Positions 3,963 through 34,152 of a stretch of DNA of 34,152 nucleotides are shown here, piece after piece (the stretch's first letter is position 1; each line of letters opens with the position of its first letter). The stretch lies in the NCBI GenBank assembly GCA_016931415.1, contig JAFGEW010000004.1:1-34152 (forward strand), given 5' to 3'. Below the pieces are notes generated by a model, which was not told the DNA's origin, made no database searches, and worked only from the letters and a program-made list of their open reading frames with translations. The stretch is from Verrucomicrobiota bacterium. GTDB lineage: Bacteria; Auribacterota; JABMQX01; JAFGEW01. A program made the position numbers and the translations under genes.

Positions 3963-4226
3963 TATGCAAGCCTTTCAGGCTATTGGCGGGGGTGGTGTGC
4001 CTCTGTCCCCAGGGCGCTGCCCTGGGCTTTCCTACAGAGCCCCTTCGGGGCAATCACAATGGGACAGACAACAGGACCCTCGACGAGCAGTTGGGTATGC
4101 AAGCCTTTCAGGCTATTGGTGGGGGTGGTGTGCTTCTTCCCCCAGGGCGTTGCCCTGGGCTTTCCTACAGAGCCCCTTCGGGGTAATCACAATGGGGAAA
4201 AGGATGGGATCCTCGACGAGCATTAT
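3963..4226 (+). repeat. 133-bp tandem repeat of a two-hairpin module (2 copies)
   Basis: Two head-to-tail copies begin at 3963 and 4096 (period 133) with TATGCAAGCCTTTCAGGC. Each contains a strong stem (CCCAGGGC-GCT/GTT-GCCCTGGG), then a 14-nt spacer, then a short stem (GCCCC-TTC-GGGGC), and ends near CCTCGACGAGCA. Several frames stay open through it, but the amino-acid sequence simply repeats and has no plausible start signal. The remaining bases to 4492 show no gene, apart from the ribosome binding site of the next one. Confidence 0.85.
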
Positions 4227-5375: not shown

Positions 5376-5771
5376 ATGGCGAGAGTCTTCTGCGTGAGTG
5401 TTCTGATCGTCGGCGCGCTGGTTTCGATCGGTGGCTGCGACGGCGATAGCAGCAGCGGGTCGCTGCTGGCCCAGGGAACGGCCACCGTGACCTCCAGCAG
5501 CACCGTGCTGGCAACGCTCAACATCGATCAGCCCGGCACGCTGCGTGGCGTGATCGTGTGGTCGGGCGCCCCGACGGAACTGGCGATTGGGTTCAAACAT
5601 GTCGCGTCCGCAACCACCGTGGGCATGGCGCTGGGTTCGTCGCCGACAAGCTCAACGGTGGCGGTGACCTCGGCGCGCGTGGCTGCTGGAACGCAATGGG
5701 AGGTCCTGGCGGCGGCACCAAGCGGCCCGGCCGTCAGCGTGCAGTTCGAGGTGACTTTCGAGGCGGACTGA
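5376..5771 (+). CDS. Small lipoprotein, family member 2
   Basis: A 131-residue lipoprotein. ATG 5376 follows AGGAGG at 5363-5368 with a 7-base gap, so longer frames upstream are not coding. The signal ends in a lipobox, VSIGGC, with acylated Cys about residue 21. A Ser/Gly-rich spacer (DGDSSSGSLLAQGT) leads to a beta-rich domain: VLATLNIDQPGTLRGVIVWS, an IGFKHV segment, STVAVTSARVAAGTQWEV and a final VSVQFEVTFEAD. It is closely related to the protein at 5904 and more distantly to that at 4493. Function unknown; probably an envelope-anchored small beta-sandwich. Confidence 0.82.
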   Translation: MARVFCVSVLIVGALVSIGGCDGDSSSGSLLAQGTATVTSSSTVLATLNIDQPGTLRGVIVWSGAPTELAIGFKHVASATTVGMALGSSPTSSTVAVTSARVAAGTQWEVLAAAPSGPAVSVQFEVTFEAD

Positions 5772-5903: not shown

Positions 5904-6311
5904 ATGAGATCTATCGGTCTTTGTGTTCTTCTGCTCACCGCACTGGCCGCCGTCGGCGGCTGCGACAGCGATAGCAGCAGCGGTTCTTTGCTGGCCCAGG
6001 GAACCACCTCTGTACCAGCCGGCGATGCCGTACTGGCGACCGTGACCGTTACCGAGCCCGGGACGCTGCGCGGCGTGATCACGTGGTCGGGTGATCCGAC
6101 GGAGATGGAGATGGGGTTCAAGCATGTGACACCGGGAACCATGATCGGGATCAGCTTTGGCTCCCCGCCGATCACTTCGACGGTGGCGGTAACCTCGGCG
6201 CGTGTGGCCGCGGGGACGGAGTGGCAGTTGCTCGTCGGCCACGGCAGCGCGACCACCGTGAGCGTGCAGTTCGAGGTCACATTCGAACCGGATTGCCCGA
6301 CGTGTCCGTAG
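5904..6311 (+). CDS. Small lipoprotein, family member 3
   Basis: A 135-residue lipoprotein starting at ATG 5904, with AGGAG at 5891-5895 eight bases upstream. The lipobox is AAVGGC (Cys about residue 20), followed by the same SSSGSLLAQGT spacer as its upstream neighbour. The domain repeats PGTLRGVITWSGDPTE, an MGFKHV segment, STVAVTSARVAAGTEWQ and VSVQFEVTFE. It adds a short CPTCP end, so two cysteines could form a disulphide. The gap from the preceding paralogue is 132 bases with no terminator seen, so the two may be co-transcribed. A recent tandem duplication is likely. Confidence 0.82.
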   Translation: MRSIGLCVLLLTALAAVGGCDSDSSSGSLLAQGTTSVPAGDAVLATVTVTEPGTLRGVITWSGDPTEMEMGFKHVTPGTMIGISFGSPPITSTVAVTSARVAAGTEWQLLVGHGSATTVSVQFEVTFEPDCPTCP

Positions 6312-8739: not shown

Positions 8740-10158
8740 CTAGACGCTGGCTGGGCTTGGATGGTGGTGCAGTTCGGCGAGCAGTTCGACGTGGTAGGTC
8801 TGGGGGAACATGTCAAACGGGGTGACGCGTTCGAGGCTGTACCCGGCGTCCACGAGGCGGCGGGCGTCGCGAGCGAAGGCGGCCGGATGGCATGAGATAT
8901 AGGCGATGCGCGCGGGGGGACCCTCAATCAGGGCGCGGATGACGCGGGCGTCGCACCCGGCGCGGGGTGGGTCGAGCACGACGAGGTCGGCGGGCAGGTG
9001 GTCGGCCAGGAGCTGCTCGACGCGGCCGCGGCGGACGATGACGCGTTTGCGCAGGCCGGCGGCCTGGATGCGGCGGCGGGCGGCAACGACGGCGTCGCGG
9101 TCGAGCTCAATGGCGACAACGTTCTTCTGTCTGTGGCCAAGCTGCTCGGCGAGGAGGCCGGTACCGCAATACGTATCCACGACTGTGGCATTCCCCTCCC
9201 CTGCTCTCTCAACCACGGCCTGGTAGAGCCGGTGCGCGATGTCGGCGTTAGCTTGCGCGAAGGCGCCGGGATGAAACAGCGTTGTCGTCGGCGCCCCAAG
9301 CTGGTAAGCGGGCGCCCCTTCGGACATTCTCCCGCCACGCGCGCGATTTCTATCGCCCCTTCGAGACTCGGGTACGGCTTCCCCATCGTCATCCCGGGGC
9401 TCACGCCCCGGGCCAGTATCTTCCGGGCCTTCGGCCCCTGCTATGGAGCGGCTCGATCGGGGGTCGCTTCGCGGCAACCATTCAGTGCAGAAGGCAGCGA
9501 CGACGGCGGGCGGCAACGGGACGCGCTCGGGGTAGCGCGGCCTCGGCGGCACGGGATCGCAGGCAAGAATGACGACGGGCTGGTCGTCGAGCATGCGCAG
9601 GACAAGACGACGCAGGTCGGGCCGGCACCAGGCCATGTCGCCGGAGTTGAGCCAGGCCTCGACGGTGGGAAGCGCGGCGTTGAGCTCGTCGACGAGCAGC
9701 GGGCACCGCTCGACGCGGACGAGAGCGCCCGGATCGTCCCATCGGTGGAGGCAAAGGGCGAGCGCGCCGTCCTGATCGCGCACGGCCATGGTGATCTTGC
9801 GGCGGTAACCGAACGGCTCGGACGCGACGGTTGGCTCAGGCTCGATGTCGATGTGGCCGACGCGGCGCAGGGTTTCGCGGACGGCGTCGCGTTTGAACTC
9901 GAGCTGCTTGGTGTACGTCATGTGCTGGAGCTGGCAACCGCCGCATTGCTCGTAGAAAGGGCACGGGGGCTCGACGCGGTCGGGCGACGCGGTGAGCAGC
10001 CACCGCATGTGGGCGCGGCGCCAATGCTTGGAGGCCTGCACGACCTCGGCTTCGCAACGCTCGCCGGGCAGCGCGCGCGGAACGAAGTGGACAAGGCCCT
10101 CGTGCCGGGCGATGCCCTCGCCGCTGGTGGACAGCGTTTCGATGTCGAGTGTGATCAA
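8740..10158 (-). CDS. rlmD: RlmD/RumA-family 23S rRNA (uracil-C5) methyltransferase with an insertion
   Basis: A SAM-dependent m5U methyltransferase of the TrmA/RlmD family, 472 residues. It starts at TTG 10158, which GGAAGG precedes by about 7 bases. An N-terminal TRAM-like domain (1-55) leads to the iron-sulfur cysteines C66, C72 and C75 (CPFYEQCGGC) and C152 (ERCPLL). The SAM motif VVDTYCGTGLL is at 326-336, LDPPRAGC at 395-402, and the catalytic cysteine C423 lies in YISCHP. GAFAQAN matches the family's FxQxN box. Residues about 230-281 are a hydrophilic, Arg/Gly/Asp-rich insertion without family counterpart; its DNA is an intergenic-type repeat (see 9316-9471). Which uridine is modified (U1939 or U747) cannot be told from sequence alone. 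Confidence 0.9.
   Translation of the reverse strand: MITLDIETLSTSGEGIARHEGLVHFVPRALPGERCEAEVVQASKHWRRAHMRWLLTASPDRVEPPCPFYEQCGGCQLQHMTYTKQLEFKRDAVRETLRRVGHIDIEPEPTVASEPFGYRRKITMAVRDQDGALALCLHRWDDPGALVRVERCPLLVDELNAALPTVEAWLNSGDMAWCRPDLRRLVLRMLDDQPVVILACDPVPPRPRYPERVPLPPAVVAAFCTEWLPRSDPRSSRSIAGAEGPEDTGPGREPRDDDGEAVPESRRGDRNRARGGRMSEGAPAYQLGAPTTTLFHPGAFAQANADIAHRLYQAVVERAGEGNATVVDTYCGTGLLAEQLGHRQKNVVAIELDRDAVVAARRRIQAAGLRKRVIVRRGRVEQLLADHLPADLVVLDPPRAGCDARVIRALIEGPPARIAYISCHPAAFARDARRLVDAGYSLERVTPFDMFPQTYHVELLAELHHHPSPASV
9316..9471 (+). repeat. Two-hairpin element inserted in frame inside rlmD
   Basis: Within rlmD the DNA contains CCCGGGGC-TCAC-GCCCCGGG (9393-9412), a 12-base spacer, and GGGCC-TTC-GGCCC (9425-9437). 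This is the same two-hairpin arrangement as the intergenic arrays at 3963, 17191 and 23405. The surrounding 156 bases have no stop in the rlmD frame and encode about 52 residues absent from the usual RlmD fold. They fall just before the GAFAQAN box, at a domain boundary. Confidence 0.7.
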
Positions 10159-12666: not shown

Positions 12667-12826
12667 TCGCCCCTCCGGGGCTCTGGTGTGTTGTTGGGCG
12701 GCGTTGTCCATGGGCTGACGCCCCTGGCTACTCCCAATCGCCCCTGGCGGGGTTCCGGATTCCATCCTTGATGCCCTATCCCACGAGTGCCGCTTCTGGC
12801 TATTGCCAATCGCCCCTGGCGGGGCT
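12667..12826 (+). repeat. 71-72-bp tandem repeats, two-hairpin type
   Basis: TCGCCCC(T)..GGGG(C/T)T units begin at 12667, 12738 and 12810 (periods 71 and 72). Before the second unit stands CCATGGGC-TGAC-GCCCCTGG, a stem with one mismatch. These are degenerate relatives of the 73-bp array at 17191. The gap 12578-12863 shows nothing else. Confidence 0.75.
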
Positions 12827-17190: not shown

Positions 17191-17503
17191 TCGCCCCTAA
17201 CGGGGCTCGGGATATGCCTTCCTGCGCTCTTATCCACGGGCTGGCGACCGTGGCTACTTCCAGTCGCCCCTAACGGGGCTCGGGATATGTCTTCCCGCGT
17301 TCTTATCCACGGGCTGGCGACCGTGGCTACTTCCAGTCGCCCCTAACGGGGCTCGGGCTGTGCTTGCCTACGCGCGCATCCACGGGCTGGCGACCGTGGC
17401 TGTTTCCAGTCGCCCCTGACGGGGCTCGGGCTGTGCTTGCCTATGCGCGCATCCACGGGCTGACGCTCGTGCCTGCTTCCGGTCGCTCCTGACGAGGCTT
17501 TGG
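17191..17503 (+). repeat. 73-bp tandem array, two-hairpin type (4 full units and one partial)
   Basis: Units start at 17191, 17264, 17337, 17410 and a degraded one at 17483, with an exact 73-bp period. Each contains CGCCCC-TAA(or TGA)-CGGGGCT and then CCACGGGC-TGGC-GACCGTGG, joined to the next unit by CTACTTCCAGT or a close variant. The middle of each unit varies (GATATGTCTTCCCGCG against GCTGTGCTTGCCTACG), and the first two and last two units resemble each other most. The gap 17174-17529 is almost filled by the array. Confidence 0.92.
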
Positions 17504-23404: not shown

Positions 23405-23584
23405 CCTCCGAACCCAGGGCGCTTGCCCTGGGCTGATATATACAGCCGCTTCGCGGCACCCGCACCTCCGAACCCAAAGCGCTTGCCCTGGGCTGATCTA
23501 TACAGCCGCTTCGCGGCACCCGTGCCTCCGAACCCAGGGCGCTTGCCCTGGGCTGATATATACAGCCGCTTCGCGGCACCCTCC
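23405..23584 (+). repeat. 60-bp tandem array, two-hairpin type (3 units)
   Basis: Three units start at 23405, 23465 and 23525 with an exact 60-bp period and only a few differences. Each reads CCTCCGAA, then CCCAGGGC-GCTT-GCCCTGGG, then a spacer TGATATATACA, then GCCGC-TTC-GCGGC. In the middle unit the first arm is CCCAAAGC, which breaks the long stem without a matching change. A shorter motif, TATATAAGCCCTTCAGGCT, precedes the array near 23368. Confidence 0.92.
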
Positions 23585-31378: not shown

Positions 31379-31607
31379 GAGGATCTCGCGCAGAGGAGGG
31401 GGAAGGAGATAACCACGGAGGGCACGGGGGACACGGAGGGACCGGAGGGTTTCTCGCAGAGGCGCAGGGGACGCAGAGGGGGACTCGCACGAGGACGTGG
31501 AGTTGCAGGTCCTTGTTTTCCGGGTGTAGCGCCGGCATCTTGCCGGCTGTCGCGGCGGCATCTTGCCGACGCGTTGATATGGACGCACGGGCAGGATGCC
31601 CGTGCTA
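31379..31607 (+). repeat. 229-bp direct repeat, copy 1 (left flank of AbiE-like pair)
   Basis: Matches 33923-34152 in direct orientation with about nine substitutions and one single-base indel (roughly 95% identity). It contains a CCACGGAGGGCACGG-type block, a CGCAGAGG block, and three hairpins with five-base loops. The second copy runs off the window edge, so the full length is unknown. Confidence 0.92.
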
Positions 31608-31884
31608 CGGGAGACGGAAGGAGCGAGGAGAAACGGAGCGAAAAATAGGTACAGGCACCTCCGTGAGGACACGGATATTCCAGTCCCTATTTTTCGCGTT
31701 GATATTCACCTGAGGGCAGGATGCCCTCAGGACAGCCACCAAGATGGTGGCGCTACGTAGGAGACGCGGAGCGAAAAATAGGTACAGGCACCTCCGTGCA
31801 GACACGGGTATTCCTGTCCCTATTTTCCGCGTTGGTATTCTCCTGAGGGCAGGATGCCCTCAGGACAGCCGGCGGGACGCCGGC
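31531..31884 (+). repeat. Cluster of hairpins with conserved five-base loop and covarying stems
   Basis: Seven hairpins, arms in order: GCCGGC-ATCTT-GCCGGC (31531-31547), CGCGGCGGC-ATCTT-GCCGACGCG (31551-31573), GCACGGGC-AGGAT-GCCCGTGC (31585-31605), CCTGAGGGC-AGGAT-GCCCTCAGG (31709-31731), GCCACC-AAGAT-GGTGGC (31735-31751), the CCTGAGGGC form again (31842-31864), and GCCGGC-GGGAC-GCCGGC (31868-31884). Loops on one strand or the other fit RRGAY. Several are followed by a GCTAC- or GGTAC-like tail. No gene lies in 31357-31935. Confidence 0.85.
31634..31870 (+). repeat. 133-bp tandem repeat with AAAAATAGG hairpin (2 copies)
   Basis: Copies begin at 31634 and 31767 (period 133). Each opens with GCGAAAAATAGGTACAGGCA and about 40 bases later reads CCCTATTTTTCGC (or CCCTATTTTCCGC), an inverted match of 12-13 bp. 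The hairpin with its T-run could also act as a terminator in either direction. The CCTGAGGGC-AGGAT hairpin closes each copy. Confidence 0.88.
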
Positions 31885-31935
31885 GGTACACACGCTCTGT
31901 CGTGCACGAGGGCGTTGGCACGATGACGGCATCGT

Positions 31936-33922: not shown

Positions 33923-34152
33923 GAGGATCTCGCGCAGAGGAGGGGGAAGGAGATAACCACGGAGGGCACGGAGGGACACGGAGGGACCGAAGGGTTTCTC
34001 GCGGAGGCGCAGGGGACGCAGAGGGGGACTTGCACGAGGACGTGGAATTGCAGGTTCCTGTTCTGCGGGTGTAGCGCCGGCATCTTGCCGGCTGTCGCGG
34101 CGGCATCTTGCCGACGCGTGGATATGGACGCACGGGCAGGATGCCCGTGCTA
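33923..34152 (+). repeat. Direct repeat, copy 2 (right flank of AbiE-like pair, cut by window end)
   Basis: Second copy of 31379-31607, same orientation, about 95% identical, starting GAGGATCTCGCGCAG. It begins 111 bases upstream of the GTG start of the regulator and contains the same three hairpins. The window ends inside it. The stretch 33875-33922 holds nothing recognisable. Confidence 0.92.

Follow-up and report, generated by a model that had tools for sequence, protein, structure and literature searches.

The window, by which is meant the whole stretch of DNA analysed, comprises 34,152 nucleotides (positions 1 to 34,152, forward strand, of contig JAFGEW010000004.1, assembly GCA_016931415.1) from Verrucomicrobiota bacterium (GTDB Auribacterota; JABMQX01; JAFGEW01), the genome of which is a draft of 134 contigs with an estimated contamination of 4.5%. 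The minus strand encodes RlmD, a 23S rRNA (uracil-C5)-methyltransferase, and the gene is interrupted in frame; the features of the locus are listed below.

8743-10158, minus strand: rlmD, 472 aa, with in-frame interruption (TIGR00479, conserved residues and predicted fold)
9313-9483, no strand assigned: insert of approximately 57 codons (residues ∼226-282) in which coding signal is lacking (codon log-likelihood, GC3, pLDDT and homologue comparison)
9345-9367, plus strand: possible decayed linker and hairpin 2 (R2 3.7 bits, unfiltered search; possibly chance)
9393-9438, plus strand: intact two-hairpin element of the Acido-Lenti-1 type, 46 nt (RF01687 45.4 bits; R1 38.8 bits; DNA fold)
9393-9412, plus strand: hairpin 1, 8-bp stem (9393-9400/9405-9412) with TCAC loop
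9413-9424, plus strand: 12-nt linker between the hairpins
9425-9437, plus strand: hairpin 2, 5-bp stem (9425-9429/9433-9437) with TTC loop
9463-9475, plus strand: hairpin-2-like GTCGC-TTC-GCGGC, perhaps left over from another copy (weak; R2 7.8 bits in a local search without filter)

The deduced protein scored 266.4 bits against TIGR00479 (cut-off 183.6) in a match split into two stretches, both halves matching this one family in the same frame. An alignment of homologues revealed that C66, C72, C75 and C152, which match the four Fe-S cysteines, as well as C423 and E458, are invariant; the roles of the Fe-S cysteines, catalytic Cys and catalytic Glu are taken by us to be those established for RumA. 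The score above the cut-off together with these residues identifies the protein as RlmD. The alignment-based AlphaFold model had a mean pLDDT of 82 with RlmCD and RumA the best structural matches, and was used in place of a single-sequence model (pLDDT 35) that was useless. No stop or frameshift was present in the reading frame despite the insert.

The extent of the insert was evaluated with a codon likelihood trained on ten genes of the window. The likelihood was positive over most of rlmD, with a strong coding signal on either side of the insert, and was clearly negative solely at residues ∼227-282 (about −0.2 to −0.7 bits per codon). The GC3 of the insert was 0.55-0.65 versus ∼0.85 in the rest of the gene. 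The spacing from CPLL to FxQxN is 148 residues compared to 121-128 in most complete homologues sharing the central domain, a net length excess of 20-27 residues, and the gap between the two stretches matching E. coli RumA is 121 residues versus 74 in RumA. The inserted residues have no counterpart in homologues. Since the insert of ∼57 residues exceeds the net gain, approximately 30 native residues have been lost or are unrecognizable, indicating that the insertion was not clean. The initial annotation, which proposed a search for orthologues lacking the extra residues, was correct in that the spacing in homologues is shorter, but the insert is not a simple addition.

Residues 225-295, immediately before the FxQxN box, are the only run of three or more residues with pLDDT below 50 in the alignment-based model, although low values are partly expected for an insert without aligned homologues. 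The model suggests that the insert probably adds an unstructured loop or linker, in agreement with the disordered loop anticipated at this position by the initial annotation. An unrelated RlmD homologue (L212, viral_contigs) contains its own low-complexity insertion of ∼70 residues in the same loop before FxQxN, which indicates that the site is permissive. An uninterrupted rlmD was not found in a close relative, homologues outside the same-class genome G001 being ∼41% identical or less; G001 yielded no RlmD above the cut-off and therefore offers no empty rlmD site. No target-site signature was identified at the insertion in rlmD.

The plus-strand sequence of the element in rlmD is CCCGGGGC-TCAC-GCCCCGGG, followed by the 12-nt linker and GGGCC-TTC-GGCCC, and it is this strand, antisense to rlmD, that matches the family. 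As single-stranded DNA it folds exactly to the two hairpins with −15.5 kcal/mol (z −3.3), only one of 200 shuffled sequences folding as well. The Rfam family RF01687 (Acido-Lenti-1) matches the element over its full length, positions 1-46, with 45.4 bits and E 2.5e-7, above the gathering cut-off of 37. A covariance model, R1, built without the rlmD copy also found the element with 38.8 bits and E 6e-8 in the window. The copy is unique in the genome; the next best match is 80% identical over 44 nt. The 46 nt are all that is recognizable as element in the ∼170 nt of the insert, the rest consisting of weak hairpin traces, and a search of the rest against the same genome did not produce a convincing second copy. 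A span of 9316-9471 was originally proposed for the repeat; the element proper is the 46-nt unit within the insert (∼9313-9483). The whole 150-nt insert was also considered as a single structure and rejected, as it folded no better than shuffled sequences on either strand (z −0.2 and −0.1), whereas the 46-nt unit alone did.

Related elements are present elsewhere in the window, all on the plus strand, consistent with the earlier observation that the layout in rlmD is that of intergenic arrays in the window.

4008-4185, plus strand: two elements (4008-4052 and 4141-4185) in a 133-nt tandem repeat (R1 56.5 and 51.9 bits)
12708-12826, plus strand: two elements related to the 48-nt type, at 12708-12754 and a weak one at 12781-12826 (R2 32.2 and 15.6 bits)
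17234-17499, plus strand: tandem array of four elements, 73-nt period (R2 31.6-32.0 bits, the last 17.1)
23413-23578, plus strand: tandem array of three elements, 60-nt period (R1 47.3, 29.9 and 47.3 bits)

Other repeats were observed in the window. Positions 31626-31889 contain a 133-nt tandem pair that has no relation to the two-hairpin elements and includes a long inverted repeat (GCGAAAAATAGGTACAGG...CCTATTTTTCGC). A 180-nt direct repeat, 95% identical, occupies 31428-31607 and 33973-34152, and the second copy reaches the contig end, which may explain the contig break. A 300-nt direct repeat (5398-5697 and 5923-6222, 71%) corresponds to two adjacent paralogous small genes.

Searches of the genome with RF01687, R1 and R2 located related elements in at least 103 distinct places, some of them at contig ends. 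Two main types were distinguished, one of 45-46 nt (CCCAGGGC type) that includes the rlmD copy and one of 48 nt (CCACGGGC type) with GTAG beside hairpin 1 on the complementary strand. Both stems covary: 98% of cells were paired, with two-sided changes in 6 and 8 of 13 pairs, and slid controls were far lower. A composite of ∼370 nt containing two inverted elements is present on many contigs with copies mostly 80-93% identical, which suggests that it spread within this genome. One copy lies at C132:1182-1550, with others on C17, C133 (three), C86, C103, C99, C112, C35, C77, C9 and C105; the inverted elements are 48-51 nt with an inner palindrome CAATCGCCCC-TCA-AGGGGC, an arrangement that is REPIN- or MITE-like.

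Among about 70 elements with flanking sequence, a second clear case of a gene containing elements was found. An open reading frame at C10:2975-6649 (L199, L260) encodes a 1231-residue DnaE-type polymerase with PHP, DNA_pol3_alpha, finger and HHH domains, and contains three in-frame elements at two sites (residues 142-159, 962-978 and 1043-1059). The coding signal fades or disappears around residues 111-170, within the PHP region, and 918-1085, between HHH_6 and the OB domain. The DnaE-type protein of G001, the only same-class genome compared, is 61% identical; it has a 29-residue gap exactly over the first element and is ∼95 residues shorter at the second site. This amounts to an empty-site comparison. 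Several open reading frames that span elements on other contigs were not scored as genes, as they lacked coding signal. Further copies overlapping a gene, which the initial annotation had proposed to seek with a covariance model, were found in this polymerase.

Two tnpA genes of one type are present in the genome, intact on C90 and broken on C66, and both adjoin or lie between elements. The gene at C66:278-706 (L073) is of another flavour, with an MGHTF start and 48-nt elements on both sides, and is interrupted by an in-frame TAG as well as a change of frame. Four other Y1 loci (C27, C76, C23 and C87) were rejected as partner, having no adjacent elements. An alignment of TnpA proteins (A1) revealed HUH and Y---Q--HH motifs with H56, H58, Y116, Q120, H123 and H124 invariant, and the transposase profile matched structures of the IS608- and ISDra2-type TnpA. 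The C90 protein, of about 151 aa, scored 45.9 bits against the IS200-like family NF033573 (cut-off 55) and 19.9 bits against REP_Tyr_transpos (cut-off 80). The combination of Y---Q--HH and HUH motif is that of TnpA_Y1 subclass 1.2 and not that of TnpA_REP (class 2), the subclass label resting on the Y---Q--HH signature.

The association was evaluated in 80 named tnpA loci with spans up to 5.4 kb from a scan of GTDB contigs, mostly from Planctomycetes, Verrucomicrobia and Acidobacteria; the loci are those that best matched a single query, and the association accordingly covers that branch of subclass 1.2. At Rfam's cut-off RF01687 had 11 matches in the 80 loci, all 11 within 165 bp of tnpA. With R1 (E below about 1e-3), an element was found within 200 bp of tnpA in 66 of the 80 loci, on both sides in 42, and in 60 of 74 when the six loci contributing to the model were omitted. 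Element density within 200 bp of tnpA was 54 times that beyond 500 bp, while 29 rlmD loci of other genomes, used as a control, gave no element matches. Elements were also adjacent in most of the tnpA loci obtained from genomes of the same phylum. The elements are mostly arranged as an inverted pair around tnpA (upstream 54 minus versus 13 plus; downstream 49 plus versus 9 minus). Upstream and downstream copies at one locus were 0.82 identical compared to 0.63 between loci (permutation p 1e-4), a likeness in sequence that would be expected if each transposase keeps its own element flavour. The element is thus no orphan, a point missing from the initial annotation: its score passes the cut-off of a named Rfam family, and elements of its kind flank an HUH transposase gene.

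The insert in rlmD is very probably a copy, in frame, of a REP-like two-hairpin DNA element belonging to a Y1 HUH transposase of the IS200-like subclass 1.2. By analogy with the biology of REP and IS200 elements (PMC8266576, PMC6006769) the elements are presumed mobile. The transposase would probably recognize the paired hairpins on single-stranded DNA and move or copy the element, usually to intergenic sites. On this model a single insertion would have struck rlmD, possibly of a short array in which one unit stayed intact while the others decayed. On average, 4.25 of the 6 frames of an element contain no stop, so that an open frame is unremarkable and needed little luck beyond length; with a GC-rich element lacking stops in most frames and a net length divisible by three, the rlmD frame would have survived. 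The insert, if translated, would sit in the loop between the central and methyltransferase domains, where it may be tolerated with catalytic residues kept and the enzyme presumably active.

The unrecognizable ∼30 native residues before the FxQxN box could signify that rlmD has lost its function and is a pseudogene marked by the insert, an explanation considered improbable in view of the conserved catalytic residues, the strong flanking coding signal and the absence of stops and frameshifts, as the initial annotation had also noted for frame and motifs. Somewhat less probable still is a genuine noncoding RNA, either antisense to rlmD or a regulatory structure in its mRNA. Rfam files RF01687 as an sRNA, both stems covary and the matching strand is antisense to rlmD; yet covariation is equally expected of a single-stranded DNA hairpin recognized by a protein, and the copies form tandem arrays and inverted pairs around tnpA, lie within two unrelated genes and are found at no fewer than 100 genomic places.

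The variability of RlmD loops at this position, illustrated by the unrelated insertion of ∼70 residues in L212, would accommodate a native lineage-specific loop that resembles the hairpin module by chance. This is very unlikely given the RF01687 match in the window (E 2.5e-7) and a genome full of copies; furthermore, the coding signal is lost abruptly at the insert alone and the second gene behaves alike. The least likely explanation is an assembly or binning artefact in which a repeat misjoined two contigs within rlmD. The assembly is a draft with some estimated contamination and with some copies at contig ends, but the copy in rlmD is unique and hence a poor site for repeat-driven misjoining, and the parts of rlmD on either side of the insert match a single family without a change of frame.

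Compared with what is reported for the family, the preferred reading as a transposase-associated DNA element is a departure. In its published description, Acido-Lenti-1 is probably a noncoding RNA, found in Acidobacteria and Lentisphaerae and unlikely to be cis-regulatory (PMC2864571). The element in rlmD resembles RF01687 in sequence, two-hairpin structure, length and a score above the cut-off, whereas the family filed by Rfam as an sRNA behaves here like a DNA repeat that is scattered through the genome and linked to a transposase gene, and is best read as the REP-like cognate DNA of the transposase. In the open-access literature, the titles and abstracts of papers naming the RF01687 family contained no link to a transposase; the link appears to be new as far as checked, while REPs within genes in frame were already known. 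Indeed, they have been described in the PVC bacterium Opitutus terrae and in DnaE2 genes (PMC3733652), contrary to the initial annotation, which knew of no description in this kind of organism. An orphan Rfam family thereby acquires a specific protein as partner and a function open to test, and annotating RF01687 as an sRNA may label mobile-element debris. On balance, we favour the broader proposal that Acido-Lenti-1, rather than an sRNA, is the DNA recognized by an undescribed and widespread REP-like system of subclass 1.2 HUH transposases, sprinkling modules through genomes of Planctomycetes, Verrucomicrobia, Acidobacteria and their relatives and repeatedly adding in-frame disordered linkers to housekeeping enzymes (RlmD, DnaE).

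The elements differ from those of IS200/IS605, where different left and right subterminal hairpins surround a single mobile tnpA; here similar two-hairpin elements are on both sides, often in several copies. Rickettsia palindromic elements likewise are palindromic repeats in frame within functional genes, although they are from other organisms and are likened to the rlmD element by description, not sequence. Class 3 genes of Planctomycetes and Acidobacteria have been reported with 'atypical secondary structures' that can reach high copy (PMC6006769), a resemblance to the elements reported here; class 3 (CnGA foot) was dropped as partner because its signature (Y----Q) differs from the Y---Q--HH of the present transposase. 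That signature is shared with subclass 1.2, the genes of which are reported to be mostly from Cyanobacteria and Bacteroidetes and generally to lack terminal structures (PMC6006769), whereas elements adjoin the transposase here.

A further parallel is the REP/RAYT system (REPtron, TnpA_REP class 2), with which the elements share many-copy short palindromes, inverted pairs on both sides of a Y1 HUH gene, REPIN-like composites and occasional in-frame copies in genes (PMC3733652, PMC8266576). As in a REPtron, the palindromes are dispersed at high copy (at least 103 places) and flank a Y1 HUH gene in inverted orientation (66 of 80 loci). Unlike REP/RAYT, each 45-48-nt unit comprises two unequal hairpins, and the transposase has Y---Q--HH with an IS200-like core in place of TnpA_REP. 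The foot of the rlmD copy, before hairpin 1 on the complementary strand, is CTGG and neither the GTAG nor CGTC of REPs, although the 48-nt type does have GTAG. Overall, the results bring into the range of REP-like systems an IS200-like subclass of transposases for which terminal structures were reported to be lacking, and supply in-frame cases for two core enzymes, one of them accompanied by an empty-site comparison.
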